A DNA stretch of 64,000 bases, from assembly GCF_002105155.1 (NCBI RefSeq), contig NW_019029014.1, forward strand, positions 310,001 to 374,000, read 5' to 3'. The stretch is from Lobosporangium transversale. Its lineage: Eukaryota > Mortierellomycota > Mortierellomycetes > Mortierellales > Mortierellaceae. Both the position numbers and the translations under genes were made by a program. The notes under the pieces are model-generated. The model searched no databases, was not told the origin of the DNA, and saw nothing but the letters and a program-made list of their open reading frames with translations. Below are positions 3,194 through 57,906 of the stretch, in pieces; the stretch's first letter is position 1; each line of letters opens with the position of its first letter.

Positions 3194-6100
3194 CTACTTC
3201 TCTATCATTGACAAAGACAGGATCCGAGCCAATTGTGTATCTTCATCTTCAATCTCCCCTTGTGATGCGCCATGGACATACTGTTTGATGACTGTGGGCT
3301 GTCGATGCTGCGTGCTCGTCTGCCCACTTGCTAAATCAGACATCAGTGAGTCGGTATTGGTACGCGCCACCATTGACCATGTCATCTTCTTAGTTGTCGC
3401 TTCTGCCTGCCTATCATTCTCATTTGTAGGATTTGAACCGTTTGTCAAAGGGGATGCGGGAGAGAGGATTTGCGGTAAAGCCTGACTGATCGTTGGCCAG
3501 GTATCAGCAGCAATACCTTTACCTTTCACGCCCTCATTAGTTTCTTGTTCTAGTTCTTGCAGAACCGACTGTACAATCCGTTGATCTTCTTGATTCACAT
3601 ACTCGTCCTCATTTAGGCTATCTACGTCAACAACATGGCTGGATTCCCATGGTATTGGGCAGTACGAGTGATCATGAAGCTGTTCAGAGGACACTCCTCC
3701 TTCTTTCTGAACATGCTCACCACCGTGAGGATAATCAGGGTTAAAAGGAGGCTGGGTATCCAGCATACTGAGCTCAATTGCTCTCCTGACTAACTCTTCT
3801 TCTTCTTCCAGCTCCTGTGCTGTAGGTGGCTCATCTGGCGCCCATGCATTGTCTGAAGAAAAAGTCGATGATGACGAACCCTCACCGCCCTTAGCCAAGC
3901 CCATTTGGGCTTGATTCTCTTGCTCAAGCTGCCTCTCTATCTCTTGTATCTGCTGCATCTCAAACGCTAACTGGGCAGCTTCCTGATCGTCCTCATCCTT
4001 GGAGAGCAACATCACATACTCGACAACTTCTTCGTCTGTCATATCGACCATATTTAACCCCTCCAAATTGTTATACCGCTTATGAAGCTGCTCGCGACGT
4101 TCCTTAGCTTGAGCTTCTAGCCGCTTTAACGAAACTGTTTCTTCGAGGCTATGGCGGATATCATTATGAATCTTATTTTTAGGCCCTGCGCTGTAGTGAA
4201 TTGGCCTCTTTGCCAGGCTCTTCTGGTATTTGTCTATCCATGAGATTAGATACTTCAAGTTAACAAATGAATATGGAACCTTGATATACATAATCCGTAA
4301 AATAATGGATACCTTTGATCTGGGTTGCTTCTGGCGAAAAGTCCCAGCTCTTGATCAAGCGGCCAACAGACATTATTCCACGACATTGAAGACCATTGAC
4401 AGCAATACATTTGACTCCAGTGGTTGCCATATCGTTGGGATCATGTCCAGCAACATACCTATGCATCAAAGTATTCAACATGTATTGTCAGAACATTGCT
4501 AACGTTTCAATTTATATCATGACCCATAAAAGCGTATTATAATTTCCTTTACCCGGTATTGAGGACTGCGATCAATTGCCCATTCACGGGGTTCCATGCC
4601 TTTGCCCACCCGTCCAGTCTGTAGAATTTGAAAAGCAAGCGGATGTATTAGAGGTGTCAGGTCTGTAATCCCAAAACAAATAAATCGATAGTGTCTAGCT
4701 TGGAATCATGGCCTTACCCTCCAGAGACAATAACTAGTCCGTCTACAAAAAGACTGGTCACTTTTGATTGATGACCTTTCAACACGCAGGTTGGCTCCCA
4801 GGTTAATGGTCCATGTTGCCCCTGACTCAGGTGGAGATCCAGCCGCTTTTCATGAAATTTCCAGCGCTTCAAAACATCACTCAAGTACCATAAACAAATA
4901 TTGCCAGCTTGGTCTCCAGAAACCAAAAGGCTGGGTATTTCATTCCGTCCGTGTATGCGAGCCAGAGACGTAATCATAGGCCTCTCTTCCTTTGTAATGT
5001 CCCAGTAGATCGCACTGATGGCAGTAAAGTGTGCCGGGCTTTTCAATATTGCCAAGTGGGCGAGTGTTTCGAGGTCATAGAGGTGCATAACCTTCGAGTC
5101 CATAGCTTGAGCTAAAATCAACCCTCCATGATTCATCCCAAAATCAACCTCGAGATATCTCACACCTTTAAATTGCTCTGGAAGTTTTATCACCTTGGGT
5201 AACGTAGCTGATATAACTGGATTACTGGTGGTAACCGTACTATGGTTGGCGGTATTTGAGGTAGCAGACTGTGCTGGAGAAGTAGCCCCTGAAGCGGACG
5301 CGGACACTTGCGTTACAATTGCATGAATGTCAACTTCCCAAACGAAAATTTCGCCTCCAGATGTTCCTGCAATGATACGTGAACTTGGCTCACAACAAAT
5401 GTGATCAATCGTTTTCCTCTCATTTTCTGCCAGATTAAATCCTGTACTAAACTCTCGGACACATCGTGCTTTGGATACATCCCAGAGCTTGACAATACCA
5501 TCAATTCCTCCAGTAAGAACAAATCCAAAAGAGTTGGGAATCAGTTTAGTACAGCTAACTTTTCCTGTATGAAAGCCTGCGAATGTTTGAAACGTTTGCC
5601 CTGCTGCCGCATATGATAAAGTGGTCAAAGAGACCTGTCCAGTAGAGAGTCCCCATAGCACTCGATGACTATTCCAGAGAAAAAAGCTCGTAACACTCAG
5701 CTATAGTGCTATATAGGTGATCTAATAACATAAACCAGTCTTACAAAGCGAAATTTCAAACTTACCGATCCATAGTCATGGCCGAGACAATGGCGTGGAG
5801 ATGGTGGGCCATACGAAATACGGCATCCTTCTGTACCTTCCCCAACGAAGGGCTGCATCTAGCCACAACACCTGACAAATAGTTGAGCGAAAGGTAATCA
5901 TGAACATCACATCATTAATTCTTGCTTTCAGCCATTCATTATAGACACGAGTACTAATATCTCCTATCCTCTATTCCCACACCTTCATTTACGCTGCCAG
6001 CAAGAAACCAGTCCGTGTTCGAACGACTGTTGACTTCGGACCATAGGGAAGAAACTTGGCCGATCTTTGGATTAATCCAAATATTTGCTCCGCGTCCTTT

Positions 6101-8999: not shown

Positions 9000-10160
9000 A
9001 TGGCTTCATTTTACAGAGTTCCACTTTTGCGCCAAACCAGACACTTGGTTACCAAGTCAGTGCACAACACAGCACCTATCACACATGTATCCAGATTATT
9101 TACTTCTTCGAAATACACTACAGCATCTTCCCACCCCTCAAATGAAACCAATAGTGCTAATGATATCGACCCCGCCGCTACAGCTTCTTCAGTGCCTCCA
9201 CTTCGCCTCTCTAAAGAGCAACGTGCTTTGCTTGAAGAAATGATTCGGATCGATCAAGCAGGAGAACTGGGCGCCAACTGGATTTATCGCGGTCAGTATG
9301 CAGTCCTTGGCTCTGACAAAAAAGTTGGGCCTTTGCTTCAGGTTAGGGGCAGTAAGATATAAAAATGAAAGTATACGTAGCTTTGACTATGTCTTAAACA
9401 TAAGAATCTTACATTTCTTTTGTTGTCATCATTGATATTTTAGCATATGTGGGATCAAGAGAAGCACCATTTGAAGGTTTTTGATGGGATCGTCAGCCAA
9501 TACCGTGTCCGTCCTACCGCACTAAGGCCCGTCTGGGAAATGGCTGGATTTATTCTAGGTGCTGGTACTGCCCTCATGGGCAAGGAAGCTGCCATGGCTT
9601 GTACTGAAGCAGTGGAGACTGTCATTGGTGGACACTACAACGAGTAAGGGATTGTACTTATACAAAGCAAGCGAGGAGACACGATAAATATCAAAGCACA
9701 TCATTAAATATAGAAGGACCACTAACCCACTTGCACTCTTTGTATTAGTCAATTGAGAGAACTCCTCAAGATCGATCACCCTGATATTGCTGAGCTGCGC
9801 AAGGTAATGCAGAAGAGATCCGGATACGCCATTTATAGTCGTCCCGGCGAAATGACCGTGCACAAGAATGATAATAATCGCTAACTGCTTGCTTGCCTTT
9901 TCCTCGATACAGATCGTACAGCAGTTCCGCGACGATGAATTGGAGCATCTGGAGACGGCAATCGAACATGATGCTCAAATGGTATGGACAAAACCATGTG
10001 ATAAGTTTGATGAATCATAATTTTAATAGTCAAAATCCTGATCTGACAATTTTACTCTCTTCATTTCTTTCTAATCGTGTAGGCACCTCAACACGAGATT
10101 CTCAGCAATGCCATCAAACAAGGTTGCAAGGCTGCCATCTGGATATCTGGCAAGATTTAA
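9000..10160 (+). CDS. COQ7: 5-demethoxyubiquinone hydroxylase, mitochondrial
   Basis: Five exons (9000-9341, 9444-9643, 9749-9803, 9913-9981, 10083-10160) give 247 residues, close to the family size. Residues 1-40 are a basic, Ser/Thr-rich mitochondrial presequence. The carboxylate-bridged di-iron site is intact: Glu in [17 protein letters not shown], ExxH in [11 protein letters not shown], Glu in [12 protein letters not shown] and ExxH in [14 protein letters not shown]. The C-terminus ends IWISGKI as in most COQ7 proteins. The enzyme hydroxylates demethoxyubiquinone in the penultimate step of coenzyme Q synthesis, on the matrix face of the inner mitochondrial membrane within the CoQ synthome. 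The HYND codon is split across intron 2, which confirms that junction. Very high confidence. Confidence 0.97.
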
Positions 10161-11184: not shown

Positions 11185-14100
11185 CTATCTGGGATATTGT
11201 TGGAGAAAATTACGTAGGTTCTGTACCGTCATCTGCGCATTCTCTAGAATGGACGATCCATATACAGGGATTTCGGGTTCCCGAAGATGCACTCCACTTT
11301 TTGGTGCAGTAGGTGCAGTGGTAGAAGTAACGCTGAAAGAAGCAACATAGCTGCTATCACATGTGTCTCCATTATGCTCAGCTCCGGTCCTTGCGTCATC
11401 ATCACTATCGTAGCTGTTCTCGTCCCAGCGATGCAAGCCTGGTATAGCGATACCTAGCCTTGATGCCCCTGAATCGCTTTCCAGCAACTGCGGTTGGTGC
11501 TGCAACTGGTGCTGGCCTTGATGCTGATACTGGTGTGAACTCCGCTCTACTTCCTCTTGCTGTTTCACCATATATGTATCTGGAAGAGTTTCCGATATGG
11601 TTTCATCAGGTCTTGGGCCAAACATGCGTTTGGATGGTATTGGGTTAGAAACAGGCGACGTAGGGGCCACCAAAGCGTCTATAGTAGAGCTATACACAAT
11701 CTTAAGCTCTAGCTCTAGCAGCTTCTGGTATTTGGGTTTGATTCCATAAAGCATGTATCCATATTGGTCTATAGCCCATTGAACCAATTCTAGCATCGTC
11801 ACTGCACGCTCTATCGCTTGTAGGATCCTCTCGCACTCTTCCGAGTCTGCAATCGCTTGTGAATGAGAGAGAGTAGCGCTTGTTGTTGCTAGAGTGGATG
11901 TATCTGACGTGAAGGAAACAGATGAGTGTAGTCGGCGGTGGTAGATATCTGTAGAATGGTCTTCCTCGGCAATCATATTATCCTGCAGGGCTTCTGGGCT
12001 CGCCATAGTGTCAGAGAACCTAATGTCCAAGTCATTCATATGTGATCCAGTTACGAGGCGCAATCGACTTTCGCTCGGCAACCCATTAAGAGCAGTATCA
12101 GCTCGTTGTAATGGCGGTGATCGCGGCGAATCAACGTTATCATCAGTTTCTGTATCAGTGTCTGTGCTCGCACGGGTATCGGAGTCCGTATCTGTGCCAA
12201 ATGTCCCGCCTGACTGAGCACTATGAGCGATGGATGACATGGATGAGGACTGGGATATGGGCGGCGTCCTGTATGATGAACTTGCTGCAACAGCAGCGGA
12301 AGAGAGCATCCTTCGGATTTGTCCTCTGACTTTTACCAATAACCCCGCTGGCGCATCGCCACCTCTACGAACCCAATCCAGTAGGGTGGTATGGGTGCCA
12401 ACACCTACAGAAGCGCTGATAGAGCCATCTACGAGGCGATCACCTATCCGCACTGCTTTCCCTAGCCCTTCATCTCCAACCTCAGCTCTTGTAGGCCCAA
12501 GCGGTCGTTGTCCGCTAGTATTATCGGTTGTACTACCATTACTATGGCCAAGACGACGCTGGTCGTTTCTATCTACATTTGTATTTAGCTGCCATTTCGC
12601 CACAACAGCGTACAAAATATCTTTGAGCTCAATCATGAGCTCTCCTAATTTAGACGCATATCGCATCCTTTCCGGATTGTACTTCACATCTCTGTCTTGA
12701 AATGGGATTTTCGCCATAGACTCTCGGAACAGTCGCATCCTCCCTTGCTGATCGTACTGACAATGATGTAAGACAAAGAACTGGAGCGTGGTAGAGTTGA
12801 GCAAAGTAAGAAAGTAAATCAGCGGCGGACTTGGTTGAGCGTTGAAATGCTGTGAGAGTGGATTGGGCGTCAAGTAGATACATTGGTTTGTCACCGCCAG
12901 TGAATTGGTGTCAAGGAAGAATCGCTGACGAGGCTGAGTCTTGGAGAAATAACCGTAGTTGATCGGGTGAACGATCTTTTCAGAAATATCAAACCTACCA
13001 ATAGTGCAGAAGATAAATGGCAGTAAGTACACAGCCAGTCGCCTTTTAATATAAGAGGTGTAGAGCAAAACGGTTAGAGAACGTGACATACCCGCACTGG
13101 TTAGTAGAGCAGAACGCTACTCCATCGTCATCCACTGCTTGCTGCTTGCTATTAATCCCGGCTTTGCGCTTTTTGGACGCCAATCCCGGCTGAAAGTGAT
13201 TGCGCACATCCGTCAGGTATCTCCATAACGCCAAGGAGCCTTCCTCACCTTGGTCCACCTGTTGTCGAAGGATCTTGACCGATTCCTTATCGACCATGCA
13301 GAGTGCATACGTCCTCTGCGGCGTAGACAAAGGGATTAAATAGGATTCTGCAGGAGAGCCCTCCTTCTTGCTCAACCGCAACCGATCACGAGTTTGCCAA
13401 AAGAGACCTTCCTTGTGCATCACCTTGGTTGAATGAACACCCCCATTAGGGCCGCCACCAATCTCCTCAGGCGAGTTTTTGCCGTTCCAATAAAAGGCAG
13501 GTTTGAACCATCGCTTTGTCATAGTCTCCCCAAAGTTGGCACGTGCATAATCCATTCGCGTGACTAGACCATATACAGGGTTGGTATTAGGGCCACGATG
13601 CCATTGTAATGGTTCTGCTGCGCTCAAGCCCTTCATCCTTCTTGCCCCTGCAGAGCAAATCCCACCTAGGTCCTGCGTAAGAGCCAAAAGATATGTTGTC
13701 AGTCCCGACGATGGCATCATAGGTGCGAACGAGTATGTCCAAGTACTCGGAACAGATACTGTTGTTGCTATTGTTGCTGTTGCTGCTTCTGCTGCTGCCG
13801 TTGTCGCTGGCGTACTGTCAAGATTCACTCCGCTGACGCTAGGTGGTGGGGTTGGAGCTGATGACGGCGCTAAAGGAGGGAAAATGGCAACACTCAGCTC
13901 CTGTCTTGTTTTGATCGAAGCCATAATGCTAAAGTCATTATTAGTGCTGCTTGAAGGACTAAAATCCATATAGTCTTGGAGGATACCATTCAATGGCTTA
14001 TGGTGATCCGTATGTCGGAGAAATACTGTTGTGTGTGCTTGCAGAGCCTTCTCTCTGGCCATAGCATCTGTGTGCGGCAGATTCAAAGCTCGAACCTTGA

Positions 14101-17100
14101 AAATCAAAGAGTCTGTTTGAACCTTAGAAAACACCTTGAATGGTTCAAACTGGTAGAACTCATCCATAAGACAATTATCAAATAACCATGCCCTGTTGCC
14201 AAGTAAGTGACAAAAAAAGGATGATGAGTATGTTGCGCAGTTATTGCAGTTATATCCGCATGGAACTTGCTTAGGTATATTCAATTACCGTAACTTGGAG
14301 GCAAATTCCAGGGTAAGCCATTGACTTGCTGAAAATATTGCGAATTATGGAAAATCAGAGAACAGGAGCATTAGAATGAGAATGAAAATAAAATAAAAAT
14401 AAAAATAAAAAACTGCAGCAACGATCGTCTTACCTGTGATCATACACAAGACTCCAGTGTATGGTTTAACTCGTTGGGCTGCAAACCAGATAAAGTACCC
14501 ATAAGCCTGCATCATCCCTTTGGCCCCTGACCGCATTTGCGCTAATGGCGCTTTTCCTGACTCTAGTAACGCAGCTGGTACCGATCCCACACTAGCATTC
14601 AAGTCAGGCCGCGGCGCATCTGATTCAGGACCCATAATGTCATCGTTATCATAATACATCTCAACAACCGACTCTGTACCTTCATCAGCACCTAGAGTCC
14701 TTGCGGTAGCACTTTTTTTAAAATGCTTGGATCTGAACGCTCTGACAGATGCCTTGCCTTCACCGAGATTAGAGGCGCGATTGGATACAAATGCAGCATT
14801 TCCCTGAGCAAAACTTGACTCAAGAATACTCCAATCATATACCTCTGGATCTGGTGCACTGAAGGTGCCCGTCTTACGGATCATATAAGGTGGATTGGTG
14901 ACAATGAAGTCAAACTGAAGCTTTGATGGGTTTCGGAGTCGAAGAATGGATTCACGCTCCCATGTAGCCTCTAAACTATCGCCTTTTGGTATCGTCAGTT
15001 TCAGTGTGTCATTCCTAAAGAGATGTAAGCGGGGTAGCTGCCGTCCTACGGATAGAGAGACGAACGGCAATTGTGAAACTTGCATCTGGTCCTGAGTTTG
15101 ATAAGCTAATTCTCGGATGCGTTGAACAATGGGGATCAGTGCCGCAAGGATGCCGCAGCGCGCCATCCAGAACGCAAATCCGTCAAGTTCAATTCCCCAC
15201 AAGTGTTCACAAATTTGATGGAGTAACAGCTGTAGCGCGGGCCGAGAATTCCATAATGCTCCTTCGTGTCCTGAATGTGCCTCCTGAGTTAGTAAGCGAA
15301 CATACGCGGACAAGAAGGTTGAAACACCCAAACAAGGGTCGAGTGCCGTCGGGATCAGGGGCTGCTCTTGCTGGATAAGATGACGCAGAGCGTCCTTTTG
15401 AGCCCCTGAAATCCCGTCATATGGTGTCAAATAAGACAGTTTCTTCATCGCTCCAACAAATCTGCCTAATATGTTGCCAAATCCTTGAGTTGTTCGCTTC
15501 CACATAAAATCTACGGCACTTGGAGGCGTATAGAATTGCCCATGGTCCTTTTGGTATTCCTTGGCAGTAATGGATAGAATATGTGTCGTATAGAGCTCGT
15601 TCAGAATGACATCAAAGTGCATTGCCTGCACATTCTGGGCTGAGATTGCTCGGCCCTCCTTCTTCAATGGCCCCTCAGGATCTGACCCAAAGAGATAATA
15701 ATGCCATGCATAGAGGCCTGCCTGCTTCATGGGATCATGCTCTGCCTCTCCAGCTGCATCTTGAATATGTGTCTGTCCCCCTATTATCCCACTCCCTAAC
15801 GCATCAACTATCGGCTTCAGTACATTATCCTGATCATCAAATAGATCTAAGAACTTCATCAACTCCGCACTAGCATATTCATGATGGAGAGAGTCGCTTT
15901 CTGTGCCTTGCTGATCCAATGTTAGGACGCTAGCCTCTAGAAGGGCTTGCATCAGCCAGCAGACTACACTCACAAATGATGTCATCAATGCTAGGAATTC
16001 AACCGTCGAATCGTATATTTCTGCGAACTCCTCTTCCTCTGGCGTTGGCACTGAATGCATTGCAGATGCAGAGCCTCCAGGTGAGCCTAGGCTTGCTTGA
16101 CTCAGGCCCGCCTCTAGTTCGGTGTCGCTATCAGTCTCACAACCATTGTCTTCGGGGCAATATGTCGACTGGGATAATCGAGAAGGAGGTAGGGATGGAG
16201 CACGTTGTCGTGTACTGCCTAGGGTCGGTGCTTTCTGCCTTGAGGGAACCGATGTGGATCCTAGCCTTATAGGCTTTGTAAAAGAGGGCAGGGCAGTCCC
16301 AGATCCAGCTTCCATTTCAGTTCCCATTCTTGCTCCAGCCCCCAAGCTTGCATCAAGTGCAGAGAAAGGTTGTTGTGGATTTCCATGAACAGGCTTTAAA
16401 AGATCTCGCAGGTGTACAAGAGAGCGGAGCATGGTCGGACGAAACGTTGTGGGCTGCTCTTGCGAGGGAGTATTGTCGCGTGAGGCAAAGACGCTGTGTG
16501 ACCTCAACATTCCATTAAGTAATTCAATGAGTACATACTCCAGATTAGGATTGGCGTGCCTGTTGTAATCTAGTAGGAAAATACCAACGTTAGCGCATTT
16601 CCGATTAGTTTGGAATGCTCTTGTTAAAGAAATATGCAAGCATCGCTCACTCATGTCTTCATTAAAAGCACTGGACATACTTACCATTAAAGCCACAATA
16701 TATAAAAGAGTCAAGCAACTCTCTGACATGATCTTTGGTGGAAATTAGCAGCCGGCCTAGCTGGGTACCAATAGCCTCTGCATCCGGAGAAGAGGTAAAT
16801 CCATGGTGCCCTGATACATCAGTAAGCATGAATTCCCTGGAATGGCGTCGCTTCGCTACAGAAGGTTTACGAATGGAACCTAAATTGGCTGTGGACGATA
16901 TATTGGAAGAAGCAAGGTGGGCCTGTGAACCTGGAGGTAATGATGATGATGTTGAGGGAGTAGAATAAAACCGTCGGGTGTACGGGATGTCGCCCGTGCG
17001 CTTCTGGACAATATGATTTCGAAAATGAGGCATGGGAATGGAGTATGATGTCCCTTTTGTTGATGTTGTTACTCGGGGCATAGGCGAGGGAGAAGTGGAT

Positions 17101-18499
17101 GAAGGGGTGGGTCGGCTAACTTTGGACACAGGGATGGTTGGTTTGTGCACAAAATTGGACAAATGCTCACGAGTGTTTTGATCATGCTGCTGTTCCCGCC
17201 CTCGTTCCTCCGTGCTCCCTGTCGAAAATTGTTGTTGATGGAATTGTTGGTGCCAAACAAAGCTCTCTGTGCTAGAGGAACCTGAACTAGATGGCGACGA
17301 CAGCATAAATGGTCGTTTGTTTGGACCATTTGCCTTGGGTAATGACATTAATGCTACTGGAACGTCACCATGCTTTAGAGCTAAGGACTCGAGCACTTCA
17401 TGGGAAGCGGCTTGGCATTCATGTTCCCTACAAATAGGTCTCTGATCTAAACGATGAAGTTGCCCAGAAGGCTGTGAATGTGAGTAATGTCTCCCTGTTG
17501 AAAACGGATGGGCTTGCCCATAGTAAGCATCTTTCATCCAAATATCTTTTGCTGCAAAAGTAGTTGATGCTCAGTATGGTGGATTAGAAATGGGTTTATC
17601 AATAGATGAATGATGGTGCACAGACAAGTTCTTACCTCTAAAACTAAGGCTACTGTTGTTGATGCTACCGAGATCTATAGCTTGATTGATTTGCCCTCTT
17701 TTCCGTTTAAACACAGGATCAATATCAGGGACGTGATAAAGATAACTCTTGGAAGACCATTTGTCGTCTTCGTGTATTGTAGATGAAGGGTGAATGGTAT
17801 CAGTGATTGTAGGAGGGTACCATGAGGTTGCGGGTACAGATGAAAAGGTCCTTGCGCGATGCCGATGCATGGCCAGCGAAGGAGAAAATGATGATTGAGG
17901 TGTAGATGTGGAGATTGAAAGCGGTGAGGGGATTGCTCTTGGCGGATATGATGGCATTGTAACCAGGGGGGACTGCATAAACATTGGCTGTCGCGCTAAT
18001 CCATGCCGATGCATAGATGATGGTGAATGGACGTTGTAGATATGATGGTCAAAAGCATTGTACTGATTGCCAACGCCACCCCCTTGAAAGCAATGTGCCC
18101 GTTGTGCATTTAGACTGGCTGAATGGAAATGCTGCCCTTCCTGTGATGATTGCAGCTGTCCTAGTTCCTGCTGCTGCCGTATTTCATGGTCCAGCGGTGA
18201 TAGTTGGTCAGCGCGTTCAATTGTAGAAATAGAACCCTGCAAGTGAGTTGATCGATCATGGATAGGGAATCCAGATTGTTTTAATTCATGTTGGGTATTT
18301 CGGTCTATCCATTGTGAGCGATTCTGCCCTGGGCTTATGTGCTTACTTAGATGGAAATAATACTGAGATTGATATTGATGCTGACTCCGATGCTGATCCA
18401 GGCCTCTTTGTTGGATAACGGGAAGGTTATGGTGTTGGGATTGTAACTGCTCGTAAGAGTCAGAATATTGAAGTCGATTTTGCTGATCGAAGTATTGCG

Positions 18500-18552
<53 letters not shown>

Positions 18553-18851
18553 GGCTGCGGCTGCGGCTGCGGCTGTGGAGACAGTTGATGCGGATGGAAG
18601 TTTAGTTGAATGCGGTCAGGACAGGGATGCGAAGGATAGGAAGGTGGGAAGCTGTTAGGACTAGCCTGAGGATAATAAGAATGCTGAGGTGCGGAAGGAG
18701 AAAAGAAGAGTCGGTGCTGTTGATGATGTTGCTGTTGTTCCAGTATGGGTCGTTGTGGATCATGATAGGGTAGAGCTCCTGTTTCTGATACAGCTGCTCT
18801 AGTTCCGAATTGGTTTCGATCTTGATCTCCGTTCTTGGCCTCGCTTTTCAT
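11185..18851 (-). CDS. Giant protein with Eco57I/TaqI-type N6-adenine DNA methyltransferase core
   Basis: Six exons (18851-17636, 17551-16685, 16569-14434, 14328-14289, 14192-13092, 12994-11185) have mutually consistent phases and total 2389 residues. Residues 1 to about 690 are His/Gln/Ser-rich, with a polyglutamine tract. The catalytic core starts near 1038: GQFYTPPSAVDFM (motif X-like), DPCLGVSTFL at 1105 (SAM-binding motif I), GIELDGFAFWMAR at 1153 and the catalytic FIVTNPPY at 1249-1256. ITASQWLTLEFASKLR follows, assembled across three exons including a 40-nt one. A C-terminal region (FYWNG..., then FDISEKIVHP, LTLLNSTTLQFF near 1849, KIPFQD) resembles the TaqI-C/PglX target-recognition domain. 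The family transfers methyl from SAM to adenine N6 in DNA. A low-complexity tail of about 470 residues ends the protein. Splicing and eukaryotic-style tails argue for a nuclear gene, not bacterial contamination. Activity and target are unknown. Confidence 0.82.
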
Positions 18852-21572: not shown

Positions 21573-24346
21573 TTTTTTTTTTTTTTTTTTTTTTTTTGAT
21601 AACAAGGACCCACGAGGTCATGTAGGATTTATTTAGATGTTAGCTCTATAAATGGGTTGCCCCATTACTGGGGTCGCAAATAAAGCGGTATCCAATAATC
21701 GGCCGAAGCCGCATCGTCATACTGCCACAGTACTACATCCTGTTCATAAACCACGTCAGCATTGAGTAGACTTCCTTGGTCCCAGAGGACCTGTGGCACG
21801 GCTCTACTCCCTACTTGGCCTGTTGTGCGCGAAGGTCATCCTTTAGCCGCTGTCCTCAATCATCAAAAATTTACAGCTTTCCAGGCGCTCCATAATCGCC
21901 AATTCCACCTGCTGCCGGTAGCTTGCCGCCACTCGCCGGTCTGCCTCAGTCCTGATCGCCTTCACATCTGCTGTTCGTCGTTGTCCCTGGTGAGAGCCAA
22001 AGAATTCACCTCTGCTACGTCTGTGCCTCCCAACACAGTTGCGTCCCCTGGCGCGTTTGCTCACAGAGGTGATACCATTTTCTCTTTCCCAGTTGACGGT
22101 GACTTTGCAGCGTCTGTTCCAGATTTCAGTCCTGCCGAGTTCCTCGATTGACTTGACAAAGCGGCAAACAATGTACCTTGAGATCGATGCTGTGGTTCTG
22201 AAGATCGTCTTCCATTTTTGTATCAGTTCCTTCGGCACCAAACCGTGGTACAAGTCTTGGACAGTCCAGTGGGCATGCTCACCCTCGTTCCTCCGTCCCA
22301 TATCCACATCTTCCTCACCAAACAGAGTGCTCGCATGTCGAATCTCTCTGACGCCCTTGAACATCGCTTCCAAAGAGCCCCAAATCACGTTGTCGGCTAC
22401 AGGTGTAAACGAGGGGCCTCCTTTATTCAGGTTTGGCTCCTGTGTTTTCCCTTGTTTGTCTTCCCAGAGCTTCTTCTCCTTCACTAATGCTCTTTTGCCA
22501 TCCTTCGTGATGAGTTCTATGGCCTGCTTCCAACCTTTCAATTGCTCGTCCAGTGTCATGGGACATCGCCAGAGGTGTTCTATGTCCTCCTGCTCCTGTT
22601 CACACATCCTGCAGATGTCAGTCTCATACAGGTCCGGTCGCCACTGCCTCATATAAGTGAGTGTAGGAAGCATACCATGGACCTTCTTTATTCTGTGCGC
22701 TCTCTTGTGACAATCTGCTGGGCTGGTGAAGAGGCCTCTAGGCGTGTTGCCATCGTGAAGAATATGCAGGCTTGCTTTCCATTCTACTTCTCGCCAGTCT
22801 GCAATATAATTCCTGACTCTGTTCTGAGACGCCCACAAGTAATGTGTTCTCACTGCTGATTGGAGTTTTAGCAGGTGTCTAAGATCATCCTCCACCACCT
22901 CGTTCTCGAAAATAGCGTGGCAGCGCAGATCGTTGTGTTCCAGTACTTTGATTGTCCACATTTCGCTAAAATGAGCATCTTTGGCGGCTTGGTCTGCCCT
23001 TATATTGCCTCTATTCCCAGCATGGCCCTTGACCCATTTCACAGTTACCTTCCCGCCCTGCTTAAAGAGCGCTCTCGAAATGGCTGCCCACCACACTGCG
23101 TACTTGGATCGCAATCGCTGCCGTTCAGTGCTTGCTTCTCGCTTTTGAGCAAGGTCCTTGAACTGAACCACTACCGCCATGTTGTCTATGTAGACAGTCG
23201 TTGGAACGTTACGGGGACTGACTAGAATGGCTGCGTACAGTCCTACTAGCTCTGCCTTGGTGGATGAAGCATACCCATCGACTCTACCTGAAACTACATT
23301 TGAGAAGCTTTCTGGGCCTATCTGAGCCACCACTCCGAAAGCCATCCGCACCGCCCTTCTTCCTGCCTCTTCAAGGGACCCATCGGAGTAAAGTGTTAGC
23401 TGACTCATCGTTGATAGTTTCTCTCTTTGACGCAGTATATTGTCCATGTCAACCTGTGGGATCTCTACACCTAGGCACTCAGAGGAGCCAAACCACCGAT
23501 GATGACCCTCTGGGATTTTATTATTCCTTGTTCTTGAGGAGTCCATCTCTTCTTGCGCTTTCGTCCTGAGCCTCCTATCGAGAGCTTGTTCGTCGAGTTC
23601 ATGGCGTCCACGTATCTTGTTTCGCTCTTGTGCTCTACGTCTTGCTCGGTTGAAAGCCGCTCGTCGTCGCTGTTCTCTTCTTCCTTGTTCATCGAGCCTT
23701 TGAAACCTAGCCTGTAACCGTAGGCGTTCTTGACGGCGAGCTCTTTCGATAGCCTTCGAGTGTGCGGCTTCTTGCTTGGCTTGCACCCACTGTTCACGTC
23801 GCCACACTCTCCTTCTCTCCGCCTCTTCTTTTTTCCTCTCTTGCTCTATTTTTCTTAGCAACCATTGCTCCCTCTTCCCTCTTTCCAAACGGTCGCGAAA
23901 TTGTAACATTTTCCTTCCTTGAGGATCTTTCCACAGCCTATGCCTCTCGTTAGCTTCGCGCTCTTTTTCTCTCAAACGCTCTCTTTTTTCAAAATTTTCT
24001 CGCAAGTATTCTTTTTGGAGTTCGCGATCAGACTCAGTGTATCCTTCATACTCCTGCATACCCTCTTGTATGTAACACTGTGCTCTTCTTTCTCTTTCCT
24101 CCCGCTGTTCTACACTTAGGGGATCAAGTGGCTCTCTGGGGTCTTCTTCCACGTCACTGAGGTAACTTATATATCCAACTTCATCATCCTCATCATCCTC
24201 AGTGGGCTGCTCCTCCAACATATTGTCTTCTGTGAGTAGTTCATCTGCTCTCTCATTGTTTTCAGTCTCATTTAGCTGTTGGAGCTCCCTTAAATCTCTC
24301 TCTTCCTCTTCGTCTAGTCTCTGAAGAATGTTCTTTTTGTCTCTAC
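21573..24346 (-). mobile_element. 5'-truncated non-LTR retrotransposon (LINE-like) with poly(A) tail and 19-bp TSD
   Basis: The minus-strand element begins abruptly inside an open frame at 24346 and ends in a 25-nt poly(A) at 21597-21573. It is bounded by identical 19-bp repeats GCTTAGGCCATGGAATACC (21554-21572 and 24347-24365). The open frame, uninterrupted for more than 830 codons, the clean tail and the perfect duplication indicate a recent insertion. Target-primed reverse transcription is the expected mechanism. Reverse-transcriptase and endonuclease domains are absent, presumably lost through 5' truncation. Confidence 0.88.
21843..24346 (-). pseudogene. Retrotransposon ORF fragment: charged coiled coil, RNase H, zinc knuckle
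   Basis: The open frame enters from the truncated 5' end; the upstream ATG in the flank is host sequence. About 300 residues are extremely rich in Glu and Arg (coiled-coil-like). An RNase H domain follows with its four acidic catalytic residues visible: Asp in TLYSDGSL, Glu in STKAELVGL, Asp in VYIDNMAVV and Asp in GNIRADQAA, the last preceded by WVKGHAGN. Downstream is CRMCEQEQEDIEHLWRC, a CCHC zinc-knuckle (zf-RVT) typical of LINE 3' regions. Annotated as a pseudogene because the element lacks its 5' part and a native start. Confidence 0.8.
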
Positions 24347-24365
24347 GCTTAGGCCATGGAATACC
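24347..24365. repeat. 5' target-site duplication of the retrotransposon
   Basis: GCTTAGGCCATGGAATACC, identical to 21554-21572 on the other side of the element. Confidence 0.9.
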
Positions 24366-24562
24366 TAAATGGAAAAAAAAGTAATAACAATAATAACAAC
24401 ACTTCTGGCGCCCCAAAACCCAAAGAATTAAGTGCAGTTCCATTACACTAAGCCACATTAAATATGATAATTCACGTGATAGATGCAGTAGTTAGATAAT
24501 ATAATCTAGTGCTCATCAGCGCCGGCCAGGAACCTGGCCAATCAAGTGTCATTGGTGAGAGA

Positions 24563-42875: not shown

Positions 42876-42880
<5 letters not shown>

Positions 42881-44034
42881 GGCTAGCCTGTACCTGCTGA
42901 ACTGGCTCCCAGACAACATCCGATAATTCTATAGTAGTATCGAGCCCTCCTGCCCTTCGAACCTTACCATCCTGCTCTAGTTTCTTGAGGTGCAGTAGAA
43001 CCTGGTGTTCCGCTGCTGCATGTAGATAGACCGGATATACCTTATAGATAACCGAAACAATCTGCAATGCAGTCTTACCAATACCTGCTACCTCCAAAGA
43101 CGTCGTTGTAGTTGTTGTATCAGCATTAGCATCAGTACTGGTATAGTCATTATCACCATCACTCTTCGGAATAGGATTCGACAACACCTTCAAAATATCC
43201 CTTTCCCGTTCAAGACGATGATTAATATACTCTCGAATCTTGGCCGGACCATCTTCAACCACCGGTCCATGTCCAGGATAGATCTTAAAGGCTGGTTCCT
43301 GTTGCTGGCCCTCTCCACTTGCTTGTCCGAGAGTCAATTGCTTCTCCAGTGATTTCATATACTTGCTCAAATCCTCAAACACAGCCGAACCTTGACCCAA
43401 AACACAATCCGCTGTAAACAGCGTGTTCTCCTCTTTCAACCAGAAACTGCAGTGATCCGACGTATGGCCTGGTGTATGTAAAGTTACCAACGTTGTCTGG
43501 TCATCCACTTTAAACTCTTGTTGGTCCTGAAGGCCTTCAAACTGTGTTTCGGGATCATCATGCTCTGGATCTGGGAATTTGTACACGATCGGTAAGGTTG
43601 CTCCCTCTTCGGCTGTTAAATCATTGAGTTGGATATTACGTGAAGCCAAGAACTTCATCACCTCAGGAATACCACCCACATGGTCATGGTGCCAATGTGA
43701 ACAGATAACTTTGGATATGGTAGCGTCACCAAGGTCTTTCTTAAGAGCGCTTTGCAATAGAGGGATGTACTCCGAGACGCCCTCACCTGTATCAAGGAGG
43801 ACTTTGCGTGGACCTTTCCCAATCAAGTACGTGTTCGTTCCTAAAAAAAAAGTTATAAAAGTCAAACTGGAGTGTTCTGAGGTTTTTTTTTTTTTTTTTT
43901 TTTTTTTTCTTTTTCCAGCTTGCCAGGAACTGCTGTTTACCCTGCAATGTGAATTTGCCAGGATTTAGTCCTAGGACTCGAATCACTCTTTCTGAGAGAC
44001 GTGCAATGTTGGGAAGTTTCTCGAGGGTCTCCAT
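42876..44034 (-). CDS. LACTB2-like metallo-beta-lactamase-fold hydrolase
   Basis: Two exons (44034-43941, 43840-42876) give 352 residues. The metal-binding signature SHWHHDHVGG (HxHxDH) is intact. Further ligands are His in LHTPGHTSDHCSFW, Asp in LFTADCVLG and His in YPGHGPVV. A C-terminal winged-helix region ends the domain (YLHAAAEHQVLLHLKKLEQDGKVRR), as in human LACTB2. LACTB2 is a single-strand-specific endoribonuclease of mitochondria. The same architecture occurs in a thioesterase group of fungi, so the substrate here is open. A Thr-rich insert (residues about 250-265) interrupts the linker. The intron carries a 28-T run. Family certain; precise function inferred. Confidence 0.9.
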
Positions 44035-49213: not shown

Positions 49214-51513
49214 TCACAGTTTGGCCCTGCCACCGGCAATACGCTGATATTCTTCATTTCTGAAAGGTCTGTAGTGGTGACCATCCAGCCACAGCATCTC
49301 GTCCTTGATTATACTGGGGTTGATACCCTCATTGACCAACTCCACTTTGCGTTGCTTAAATGTTCCTGTGATTTCCATCTGAGATTTTTTTCGGATGAAA
49401 ATAGGAACAGAGTACCGTGGTAAGTTTTTCAATGCATGTTCTGCAAACTTGTCCCAGTCCATCGTCTCCTTAGCAACAATCGCTGCCATGCCGGCGCGAC
49501 CATCGTAGCCAGGAACTTGGACGCCATAGACGTTGACTTCGAGACAATCTGGGTGCGCTGAAAGTACTTCAGACACCTCAGCCGTCGAGACATTCTCAGA
49601 TTTCCAGCGGAACGTGTCACCCACGCGGTCACCAAAATAATAGTAGCCGTCAGCATCGCGACTCAGGATATCACCCGTGCGGAAGTAGACATCCCCTGTC
49701 ATTAGAAACAACAACCAAGTAGATGTCAATATCGAGATAGGAGCACAACAAAGTTTAATCCGAACAGTTGTCGATTGACATACCAGATTTAAAAACGTCT
49801 TTAGCAATCTTCTTGTTAGTTGCATCCTTGTTATTATGATAACCACGAAAGTCCTTGATAGGACTGCTTGCATCTATTACGCATAATAATTCTCCTGGTT
49901 CACCAGGTCGGCATTCAATACAACGTCCGTTCTTGTCCCGAACCAATTCCTCTGTCTCGATGTCAAACTTGGCAATCTTTAAGCCAGGAAGAAGTAGACT
50001 AGCAAGAGGGCCATGGAATCCAACCGCACCTACTCCATTAGGCCCAGTATTGTAGTTATTCAATGCTCCTGTGCCCTCGGTCGAAGCATACCACTCAAAG
50101 ATCACAGGGATACCGTAGCGTTCCCTAAACCGGTTCCAAACATCAGGGCGCATGCCGTTACCATGTGCCAGCCGGACCGAATGCATTTTGTCTAATGGAG
50201 ACTCTGGCAAATTTACCAAGTATCTACAAATCTCTCCGATATACTGGATTACAGTAACATTGTTGGCACGGCAATCATCCCAGAATCTAGTTGCTGAGAA
50301 TTTTCGGGCCAGAATTATAGTTCCACCGACCGACCAGGTGACGCCCACTCCTAGAACCGCCGCTGAACTATGATACAGGGGCATACAAACATAGAAACGA
50401 TCTTTGTCGGTAAAATTGCCGAACCTTTCAAAGAATAATGCCCCCACTAGTAAGAGTAACATGAAGAAAAACTCGTTAGGCTACTACATCCACAAGAGAA
50501 ACGATCTTATAATGTTTGGTTCAGTTGTATCAGATGATAATTAGTTGCTCCTTACTATCAGCGCGGGCATGTGAGAACCGTCCAGCCTTGGGTAGGCCCG
50601 TAGTTCCCGAAGTATAAATGAGCATTGCAATATCATCGGCCTTCATCTTATGAGGAAGATGTTTAGGTGTATCCGCATCGGAGACCGAGGTAAGGTCAAT
50701 TGGCATCGCGAAATCAACGTGTCCCATCTCACCACAAGTATAGATCGTAAAGCCCATTTGTAGAATTTCGTCTAGTGATTCAGCAACAGGCGCTGTCAAC
50801 TCTGTATCCAAGATGAGCATTGAGGACGTGGCGGTGCGGAGTGAGTGAGTGAGGGGCTTGCCCGAAAGATTGGTGTTGATGAACGCACCACATGCACCAA
50901 TCTTCATGATACCGAGCCAGCAAAAGAGGAACTCAGGTTTGTTGTTCATCATAAGTGATACAATGTCCCCACGCTTTACGCCTTTGGATAGCAACCAGTT
51001 GCCAACTTTATTAGAAGCTGTAGATGTTAGAAGGGCACGAATGGGTTTAAAAGAAATACGAAGGAATAGTATTAATGTCAGTTGGCTTTTAACAACAGTT
51101 CGTTAAGGTGGCACGCAGGGTGCGTGGAATGTAGCCTTGAATAACTCTGATGATAGAAGGCCTACTTTCGTATATACCATCTCTAAAACCTAAAAAGACA
51201 CTTCCATATATAAAATATATATATATAAAAGCATCCTAGAGCAACAGAGCAACATTTGCTACTCACCAAGATGGACATCACGAAATGAGTAGGATTTGCC
51301 TTCAAACACCAAGGCTTCGCGGTTCGGATACTTGCGATAGCTCTCTTCAAAGCGATAGCTCAAGTTGATTTTCCCTTGCTTCTCAAGGGTGGCAAATGCT
51401 CGTTGCATCCCTATTGCACTCTTGAGCATTTTAGCATCTTGGGGAAGCGACAGCTTGGCGCTCACATACATGGCCACGGGCACAGCGGCAGCAACAAGAG
51501 GGAGGGCTGGCAT
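49214..51513 (-). CDS. FAT1: Very-long-chain acyl-CoA synthetase / fatty acid transporter (Fat1/FATP)
   Basis: Four exons (51513-51267, 51017-50556, 50446-49784, 49695-49214) give 617 residues, the FATP family size. An N-terminal hydrophobic stretch (LPLVAAAVPVAMYV) is followed by the AMP-binding motif LIYTSGTTGLPKA, YASTEG and YFRTGDIL. The FATP signature DRVGDTFRWKSENVST is present. The protein ends in GRAKL: the last three residues AKL form a type-1 peroxisomal targeting signal variant. Fat1 activates long and very-long-chain fatty acids to CoA esters and helps their import. The C-terminal AKL suggests peroxisomal or lipid-droplet/ER localisation. The residue after the AMP motif, GRFSHARA, matches the family. 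Very high confidence on family, good on PTS1. Confidence 0.94.
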
Positions 51514-56728: not shown

Positions 56729-57906
56729 TTTAATAACCTCATTGTTAATGATTGTGGTTACAATATTGATTCTAGAGAATTGTCAGTATTTTTGATGCCA
56801 TGACAAGCAGCTCAGTCGAATTGGCTGTCGCAGCATTTGCATTAATGAAGGGTCTTGTGCGCGTAGTGCAGGCAGCAATGCTGGGGGCCATTCTCAACAA
56901 CCTATTGATGGTATGGTATTCTCTTCCTTCCTTGTTCCTTTCATCTATACCCTTTTACATTTCGGTTCATATATTAATTTGGGGTTTCTTACATTCTTCC
57001 TTCTAGATGATGGGTATCGCACTATGTGTTGGAGGCTATTATCACCGTGAACAGAAAATCCAAGCGGATACATCTCAGACAGGAATGAACCTGCTCATGA
57101 TTGTTTGTATATCCTACGTGATCCCTGTGGCACTTGATAGTACCTTCACAGAGCTTCGTAAAGCTTCTATCCCCCATCACCTAAGCCAAGCACAGCTTAT
57201 TGAAGCAACACGAGCTATCACTGAAGGAGTCCAACACGATCTCTGGACCATCAGTAAAGTCATGGCCATAGTCATGTTAATTCTATATGGATGCTGTCTT
57301 TTGTTCCAATATGATTCCACATCCTTTATGGTCACACCAGAAGCTAAGCACACAGGCGCCCATACTGTTCACCGTCGAAATGTTCATTACTGGTTCGCAG
57401 GCTTGGGTTACTCAGTCATGCTGGGGGCTCAGATCTATTCCGCCAATCTGTTGGTTCATGCTGTTGAAGCGCTTGGGAAGCAGTTCCACCTGAATGACTC
57501 ATTTGTAGGATTTGTCTTGCTGCCAATTGTGTTAATTGCAGATCTTCAGGAGGAGGTCATTGCTATCAAAGAAAGTCGTGCCAATCGTTTAGATCGATCC
57601 ATTGCATTGATGGTTGGCAGTTGTATGCAGATCGCACTTTTAGTCACCCCTCTCTTAGTCCTGTTAGGTTGGGTCGTCGATGTGCCTATGACTTTCCGGT
57701 TTAGTCTCTTAGAGGCAGCTGTTTTGGCAGGGTCTGTTTTGATTGTCAACTACTTGCTACAAGATAATGAAACTAATTGGCTGGAGGGATGTTTATTGTT
57801 GGCTGCGTTCTTCATGTGTGCTTTGGCATTTTACTATGATATTAAACCCTTTGAGTCAGAATTGGGCAGTGGAGACCATGAACCAGGAGCTGGAAGCCAT
57901 CATTAA
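55339..57906 (+). CDS. CaCA-superfamily cation/proton exchanger, Vnx1/CAX-like with altered GNxxE motifs
   Basis: Three exons (55339-56676, 56776-56910, 57007-57906) give 790 residues. About 350 residues of Ser-rich cytosolic N-terminus precede roughly eleven hydrophobic segments, starting with LRRFYLVLLIIPAWTIPYVL. The two CAX repeats are recognisable. The first is SSSVELAVAAFALMKG with VVQAAMLGAILNNLLMMMG. The second is FVGFVLLPIVLIADLQEEVI with LMVGSCMQIALLVTPLLVLLGW. The family moves Ca2+ or monovalent cations into the vacuole in exchange for protons. In both repeats the ion-coordinating Gly-Asn-Ala is replaced (SSS, and IADLQ with a 2-residue insertion) while the Glu remains. Transport activity or ion choice may therefore differ. 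Intron 1 holds a 28-T run. The long N-terminal tail resembles fungal Vnx1. Confidence 0.82.

Follow-up and report, generated by a model that had tools for sequence, protein, structure and literature searches.

Lobosporangium transversale very probably carries an orthologue of the bacterial-derived DNA N6-adenine methyltransferase MetB

Introduction

The closest described counterpart of the gene analysed here is MetB of Mucor lusitanicus (JGI 1597305). Lax et al. (2024, PMC11258239) found that deleting metB lowers N6-methyladenine (6mA) by 70-75%, chiefly at asymmetric sites, and abolishes the AAA6mACA motif. The text of the same study describes MetB as a PF02384 protein that is conserved in early-diverging fungi, forms a fungal-only clade, and often shares less than 30% identity with bacterial proteins, and it proposes transfer from bacteria as its origin. 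In that account MetB is placed with the type I enzymes, an MmeI-type recognition domain (PF20466) is assigned to it by HHpred, and Conidiobolus coronatus and Paraphysoderma are included in its clade (clade 1). MetB has since been taken up in a 2025 paper (PMC12695648) and a 2026 review (PMC13297926). This paper describes a gene in a stretch of 64,000 nucleotides (nt) from Lobosporangium transversale, a member of Mortierellomycota (contig NW_019029014.1, positions 310,001 to 374,000; hereafter the window). Sequence comparison identifies the gene with high probability as this species' version of MetB, a fungal N6-adenine methyltransferase acting on DNA and derived from bacteria.

Several other adenine methyltransferases are relevant to this identification. 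In BREX PglX/BrxX enzymes motif X lies ahead of motifs I and IV and is followed by a recognition domain, and CamA is a stand-alone adenine methyltransferase with the asymmetric target CAAAAA. For enzymes of this class it is established that the FYTPP and DPCLG motifs bind S-adenosylmethionine and that adenine is methylated at NPPY.

The original prediction for this locus, a captured prokaryotic methylase serving as a second 6mA writer, is supported and was right in substance, and such a system had already been published as MetB in 2024. Apparently new, with respect to the main texts and listings of the literature searched, are the complete L. transversale gene model, a loop found in Mortierellomycota, a shared intron, and the members from Basidiobolus and Calcarisporiella. 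The main text of PMC11258239 contains no mention of Lobosporangium or Calcarisporiella, and Basidiobol- appears there only for 6mA levels and in one reference; a literature search for Eco57I in a fungal or eukaryotic context returned no work on such fungal genes, only a paper on another subject.

Results

The locus is an intron-split fungal gene

The locus is a real fungal gene that is split by introns. Joining six exons across five introns on the minus strand (18851..11185) gives a stop-free translation of 2,389 residues, in a source assembly of 42.7 Mb and 127 contigs. All five introns (5/5) start with GT and end with AG, their phases are 1, 1, 1, 2, 2 and their lengths 84, 115, 105, 96, and 97 nt in order, and their GC content is 0.29-0.41, versus 0.47-0.49 for the exons. 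The motifs FYTPP, DPCLG, IELDGFAF, NPPY, and ITASQWL follow each other at residues 1040, 1105, 1154, 1253, and 1405. Coordinates, strand, motif order, number of introns, and the exon of 40 nt all match the original description. The parts of the gene are:

17636..18851, minus strand: exon 1, from the start codon (first in-frame ATG at 18851), residues 1-405; a glutamine-rich low-complexity N-terminal extension with a basic KRKRG stretch at residue 382
17552..17635, minus strand: intron 1, 84 nt, phase 1, GT-AG, placed by the open frame alone
16685..17551, minus strand: exon 2, low-complexity, with the short motifs NKRPFMLS, MPHFR, YTRRFY, and LGRLLI that are shared with relatives
16570..16684, minus strand: intron 2, 115 nt, phase 1, GT-AG; the join LLDSFIY..NPNLEYVLIELLNG resembles relative P0002
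14434..16569, minus strand: exon 3, a probable helical N-domain (helical character judged by eye) and the larger part of the methyltransferase core (FYTPP, DPCLG, IELDGFAF, and the catalytic NPPY)
14518..14814, minus strand: within exon 3, an in-frame loop of 297 nt (99 residues) after NPPY, between DWSILES and MMQAYGYF; an extra intron in the public model
14329..14433, minus strand: intron 3, 105 nt, phase 1, GT-AG, in agreement with P0001
14289..14328, minus strand: exon 4, 40 nt, coding for (A)SQWLTLEFASKLR, which is also present in P0001
14193..14288, minus strand: intron 4, 96 nt, phase 2, GT-AG; the junction matches P0001
13092..14192, minus strand: exon 5, the end of the core and the start of the target-recognition region (WHRGPNTNPVY, KPAFYWNGK, RLSKKEGSPAESY)
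12995..13091, minus strand: intron 5, 97 nt, phase 2, GT-AG; the junction matches P0001
11185..12994, minus strand: exon 6, the TaqI_C-like recognition part (HPINYGYFSKTQPRQRFFLD..VTNQCIYLT..YDQQGRMRLFRESMAKIPF) followed by a low-complexity tail; the stop codon ends at 11185

The N-terminal part has counterparts in relatives. Mortierella alpina P0011 carries a Q-rich extension comparable to exon 1, and the exon 2 motifs KRPxxLS, MPHFR, YxRR[FY][FY], and LGRLL (residues 484, 579, 596, and 670) occur in 7/8, 7/8, 5/8, and 5/8, respectively, of the eight long Mortierellomycota models, i.e., those of P0002-P0034 with at least 500 residues ahead of the core.

The public protein model and a loop after the catalytic motif

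The public L. transversale protein P0001 (BCR41DRAFT_325923, partial, 1,033 residues) matches the window gene at 100%. From end to end it is identical to the translation assembled here, including the junctions between exons 3 and 6, except for 99 residues that it takes out as an extra intron of 297 nt; this identity provides the agreement with introns 3, 4, and 5, and introns 1 and 2 lie outside its coverage. P0001 starts at the methionine just past NPPY (residue 1257) and for that reason lacks FYTPP, DPCLG, and NPPY.

We do not follow the public model in treating 14814..14518 as an intron, and read this stretch as a probable coding loop of Mortierellomycota next to the catalytic motif, on the strength of its length (a multiple of three), its stop-free frame, its unusual would-be splice sites (GTTTTG..AAAG), and the presence of such a loop in relatives. 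Of the 33 Mortierellomycota rows P0002-P0034, 26 show an in-frame loop at this position under a strict pattern and another 6 on inspection by eye, 32 in all; P0032 is the one row in which it could not be located. It is variable, with roughly 60-145 added residues: the span from PDPxxYD to AYGYF measures 83-167 residues in the 26 strict-pattern rows and 121 in the window protein. Of 55 other fungal-type rows, three did not fit the pattern and 52 could be measured; the span is 21-23 residues long in all of these except one, where it is 47. These counts exclude P0035-P0037, P0039, P0098, and unnamed rows, and six Mortierella-like rows were left out of the set of other fungi.

Relatives form a fungal clade

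A search with the core as query retrieved 81 proteins, fungal wherever named, and a search with a 20-row alignment retrieved 97. In the ranking of the second search, 86 fungal or fungal-looking proteins come first and are followed by 11 of bacterial type (two of these bearing a bacterial name), with a jump in E-value from 1e-78 to 2e-13 at the onset of the latter. Both searches scored only the approximately 8,000 candidates that share most words with the query, and absence from them means little. The named hosts belong to Mortierellomycota (Mortierellaceae), Glomeromycotina, Mucorales, Umbelopsis, Jimgerdemannia, Calcarisporiella, and Basidiobolus, which disposes of the notion that the gene is an oddity of one genome. 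Within L. transversale the window locus is the only one of its kind found, as a search for a second copy with a Phycomyces query returned none.

The core motifs are widely retained. TNPPY is present in 94 of the 98 fungal-type relatives; the exceptions are P0001, P0035, and P0036, each of which lacks all three motifs tested, and P0095. The window protein has the complete set of FYTPP, DPCxG, and NPPY, as does every one of the 33 rows P0002-P0034 except P0025, from which FYTPP is missing.

In a phylogeny of the core, 46 fungal rows including the window protein are split from 36 bacterial-type rows by a branch with support 100/100. The fungal rows comprise the window protein and 45 hand-picked from the 98 relatives, and the bacterial-type rows are 36 of 41, five having been dropped for short coverage; eleven rows in the tree have under half of their columns filled. 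The fungal lineages appear as groups: Mortierellomycota 100/99, Glomeromycotina 100/99, Umbelopsis 100/100, and Mucorales 97/92. Tree and distribution together agree with the proposed capture of a prokaryotic methylase that is old in fungi. For the donor, the branches that join the fungi to any bacterial group have bootstrap values of only 35-52, and long branches were flagged. Thirty of the bacterial loci came from a single scan of genome contigs for two peptide patterns; the best of them shows 27% identity. No viral carrier was found: two peptide patterns yielded 279 stretches on viral contigs, none of which was confirmed by tblastn.

Three further placements were observed. Basidiobolus ranarum P0047 and Calcarisporiella thermophila P0038 are members that group loosely with Mortierellomycota (82/86). 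Gongronella butleri has three divergent members (P0081, P0093, and P0094) that form one group (100/99), a lineage-specific expansion. P0079, from a metagenome-type source, is long-branched and fungal-looking and shares 30-37% identity with four Mucorales proteins retrieved alongside it, and its source may be another early-diverging fungal lineage.

The position of intron 3, after CMIT in phase 1, provides an additional indication of age. At exactly this place Acaulospora P0051 has 19 extra residues opening with GRV, and three Mortierella-like open reading frames (P0064, P0065, and P0070) read GE.., as would be expected of frames that continue into a GTGAGT intron. Of these, P0065 and P0070 stop shortly afterwards and P0064 extends at least 35 residues further; the partial protein P0068 of Linnemannia stops precisely at this place. 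These protein models suggest that the intron position is common to Glomeromycotina and Mortierellomycota.

Profile matches

Searching the translated exons against profiles, as had been proposed for this locus, gave a match above cut-off for Eco57I (PF07669; E=5e-13, 49.9 bits, cut-off 25.3). The two other families expected originally did not reach theirs, TaqI_C scoring 14.3 bits (cut-off 26.5) and N6_Mtase (PF02384) 18.2 bits (cut-off 20.4); the sole TaqI_C candidate of a whole-genome scan lies at the same place in the window gene, at 19.8 bits, again under the cut-off. No nuclease family was matched in Pfam at E up to 1. There was no Pfam match to the MT-A70 domain (PF05063) either, in line with the earlier assignment of the protein outside that family.

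On a model of the fungal family core the window protein scores 352 bits, and bacterial-type relatives at most 72; this and the Eco57I match rule out a chance resemblance. For PF02384, P0002 scores 16.3 bits and relatives from Mucor, Phycomyces, Basidiobolus, Rhizophagus, and Rhizopus 47-64; Mucor circinelloides P0083 reaches 63.4 bits for PF02384 and 81.6 for PF07669. Sub-threshold matches to MmeI_Mtase (13-20 bits) were obtained in seven of the relatives tested (P0059, P0077, P0047, P0052, P0083, P0087, and P0085). A protein methyltransferase of the HemK/PrmC type is not what the profiles point to: P0083 scores 15.5 bits on hemK_fam versus the 115.5 required, and the model is not listed for other fungal rows.

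Conservation of the recognition region

Among 60 fungal rows (alignment A3), mean pairwise identity is 0.476 in the recognition region, 0.505 in the catalytic core, and 0.267 in the flanking parts, and columns conserved at 90% or more number 90 of 348 well-filled columns in the recognition region and 86 of 303 in the core. The near-equal conservation of the two domains fits a target sequence that has been kept. In a control, the ratio of recognition to core identity averaged 0.94 in fungi (range 0.78-1.07; 66 pairs, 12 hand-picked rows) and was 0.49-1.26 in bacterial-type proteins (34 pairs, 23 rows, six groups). Some bacterial sets therefore show the same ratio, which weakens the conservation of the recognition region as proof of a fixed motif.

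Other methyltransferases and neighbouring genes

A profile search of the genome found MT-A70 matches on three other contigs. Compared with solved proteins, the first (contig C47) resembles Methyltransferase-like protein 2 (E=1e-20), presumably a METTL4-type enzyme, and the second (C24) resembles MTA9 (E=8e-11). The third (C46), a 64-residue piece, resembles the catalytic MT-A70 protein 7f4r, which we take to be MTA1, at E=6e-23, ahead of METTL3 at E=2e-12. Symmetric and asymmetric 6mA pathways thus both appear to be present in L. transversale, as far as gene content indicates.

The genome-wide Eco57I and N6_Mtase scans missed the window gene, probably because they proceed exon by exon. The Eco57I scan gave a match on C69 that looks HemK-like, by eye only, and the N6_Mtase scan picked up C117, where the match is a small-domain methyltransferase, and C73, where a stretch stays below threshold. 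The C117 methyltransferase (L003 1408-2130, G000:C117) has Methyltransf_31 as its best Pfam match and lies downstream of a frame without Pfam match that is pseudouridine synthase-like by eye.

Of nine neighbouring frames tested in the window, seven had a Pfam match, including a kinase match that stays below its cut-off. The frame with an RNase H domain is probably a retrotransposon remnant. The neighbours include:

4714-5700, minus strand: WD40 repeats (Pfam)
9000-9362, plus strand: COQ7 (Pfam)
21843-24491, minus strand: frame of 882 codons with an RNase H domain (E=7e-13)
42876-43964, minus strand: metallo-beta-lactamase with BLACT_WH (Pfam)
49755-50480, minus strand: AMP-binding enzyme (Pfam)
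57007-57906, plus strand: sodium/calcium exchanger (Pfam)

Discussion

The window clade is identified with MetB because its Mucor member P0083 passes PF02384 (63 bits) and the text of PMC11258239 reports one such gene. We infer that the two clades are the same and that the Mucor member is metB itself; the host distribution of the window clade matches that of clade 1 in the published account.

Several observations weigh against this reading. The window protein stays below the PF02384 cut-off, which the small methyltransferase on C117 passes (28.3 bits); PF02384 is the profile by which the authors of PMC11258239 gathered the family, and we regard it as a means of detection and not as a trait that defines membership. 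MmeI_TRD (PF20466) has no HMMER match anywhere in the genome, the weak TaqI_C match standing in its place. Motif I reads DPCLGVS in Mortierellomycota versus DPCMGxG in most other members, P0095 of Acaulospora colombiana has the first two motifs without TNPPY, and members from Conidiobolus coronatus and Paraphysoderma were not recovered among the approximately 8,000 candidates scored in each of the two main searches; they may be missing from the collection, differ in length, or lie outside this clade.

One alternative is that the Mortierellomycota protein has lost catalysis or taken on another role, such as that of a DNA reader. The loop inserted next to the catalytic motif (99 residues long in the window protein), the altered motif I, and the weaker profile scores of Mortierellomycota could point this way. 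The combined retention of FYTPP, DPCxG, and NPPY in the window protein and all but one of the rows P0002-P0034, and of the recognition domain as well, makes this very unlikely. We give slightly less credit still to an undescribed second fungal N6_Mtase/Eco57I family distinct from MetB, with Mucor carrying two such genes. It would explain why the published description has type I affinity and MmeI-type recognition and Pfam here has Eco57I and a weak TaqI_C, it draws on the missing Conidiobolus and Paraphysoderma members, and the identity with MetB is based on clade and profile and not on the sequence of JGI 1597305. Against it, P0083 lies 43 bits over the PF02384 cut-off and should have been met by the PF02384 scan of PMC11258239, the text of which reports one such gene; moreover, the distribution equals clade 1, and sub-threshold MmeI_Mtase matches occur in seven of the relatives tested. 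A recently acquired BREX PglX or type IIG enzyme, or bacterial contamination, can be practically dismissed, since the weak matches of fungal relatives to PglX, type IIG, and MADS MAD2 models amount for PglX to 14-32 bits in the four relatives scored, versus curated cut-offs of 400-900, which also removes the specifically PglX-like character once proposed; no nuclease domain of a type IIG restriction-modification enzyme was met on the chain, and the five GT-AG introns, the neighbours (COQ7, WD40, metallo-beta-lactamase, AMP-binding enzyme, and sodium/calcium exchanger), and a fungal clade with lineages as groups rule out contamination and speak against recent gain.

Taking the gene as the MetB orthologue, its product is very likely to methylate individual adenines in DNA. 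It would act as a single chain, consisting of an N-terminal domain, an Eco57I/N6_Mtase catalytic core, and a C-terminal recognition domain. The core would bind S-adenosylmethionine through FYTPP and DPCLG and methylate a flipped-out adenine at NPPY, and the C-terminal domain would read an asymmetric DNA sequence. By homology to Mucor MetB, one-strand 6mA at AAA6mACA-like sites is predicted, beside the MT-A70 complex, which is expected to make symmetric 6mA at ApT. The enzyme would be a writer and not a restrictor, because no nuclease domain was found. We infer that it is active and shares the Mucor motif; a second writer beside MT-A70, as originally suspected, is likely in light of the published Mucor deletion (PMC11258239). 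A further, speculative proposal, which we consider possible and rather improbable, is that MetB of Mortierellomycota is a regulated, recruited writer, in which the loop and the N-terminal motifs (KRPxxLS and MPHFR) dock to chromatin or gate activity, so that asymmetric 6mA would be targeted and not merely motif-driven, and in which the recognition domain would still read the ancestral AAAACA-like site despite a very long divergence.

These results extend a bacterial-derived 6mA writer, demonstrated by deletion in Mucor, to L. transversale, a species whose public model lacks the core motifs and whose full-length protein would itself escape detection at the PF02384 cut-off. The Basidiobolus and Calcarisporiella members bear on the time at which the gene entered the fungi. 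The near-equal conservation of recognition and core domains leads to the prediction that one asymmetric motif is methylated across Mortierellomycota, Mucorales, and Glomeromycotina. Long-read data reportedly exist for L. transversale, in which case the question of a shared motif may be answerable from them already. The species is included in a figure legend of PMC8298701, in which the non-mycorrhizal species come from the 2017 6mA survey.

Comparison with known systems

Among the known systems, BREX PglX is the one from which the family departs by the curated scores given above, for fungal relatives that do not include the window protein; in the PDB profile comparison BrxX was met at E=1e-3. 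MmeI (type IIL, 5hr4) has in its favour the weak MmeI_Mtase match of Mucorales relatives, but its PDB profile E-value is only 0.87, and the window protein has no nuclease domain match and the genome no PF20466 match. The MT-A70 enzymes (MTA1, MTA9, and METTL4) are likewise candidate 6mA writers in the same organism, but belong to a different family, the PF05063 domain of which is not matched by the window protein. Among proteins of solved structure, the profile comparison ranks 8cxz/7lni first (E=3e-12). This entry is named adenine-specific DNA-methyltransferase in the PDB, and we take it to be CamA of Clostridioides difficile; it is bacterial, has 577 residues, and aligns best over about 160 of 1,036 profile positions. 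From MetB the window protein differs in size (2,389 residues versus 972 in P0083), in its long low-complexity N-terminus and tail, in the 99-residue loop after NPPY, and in its sub-cut-off PF02384 score. It shares with MetB a clade that holds the proteins of Mucor circinelloides and Mucor saturninus, the same core motifs, the order of core and then recognition region, and a host with MT-A70 genes.

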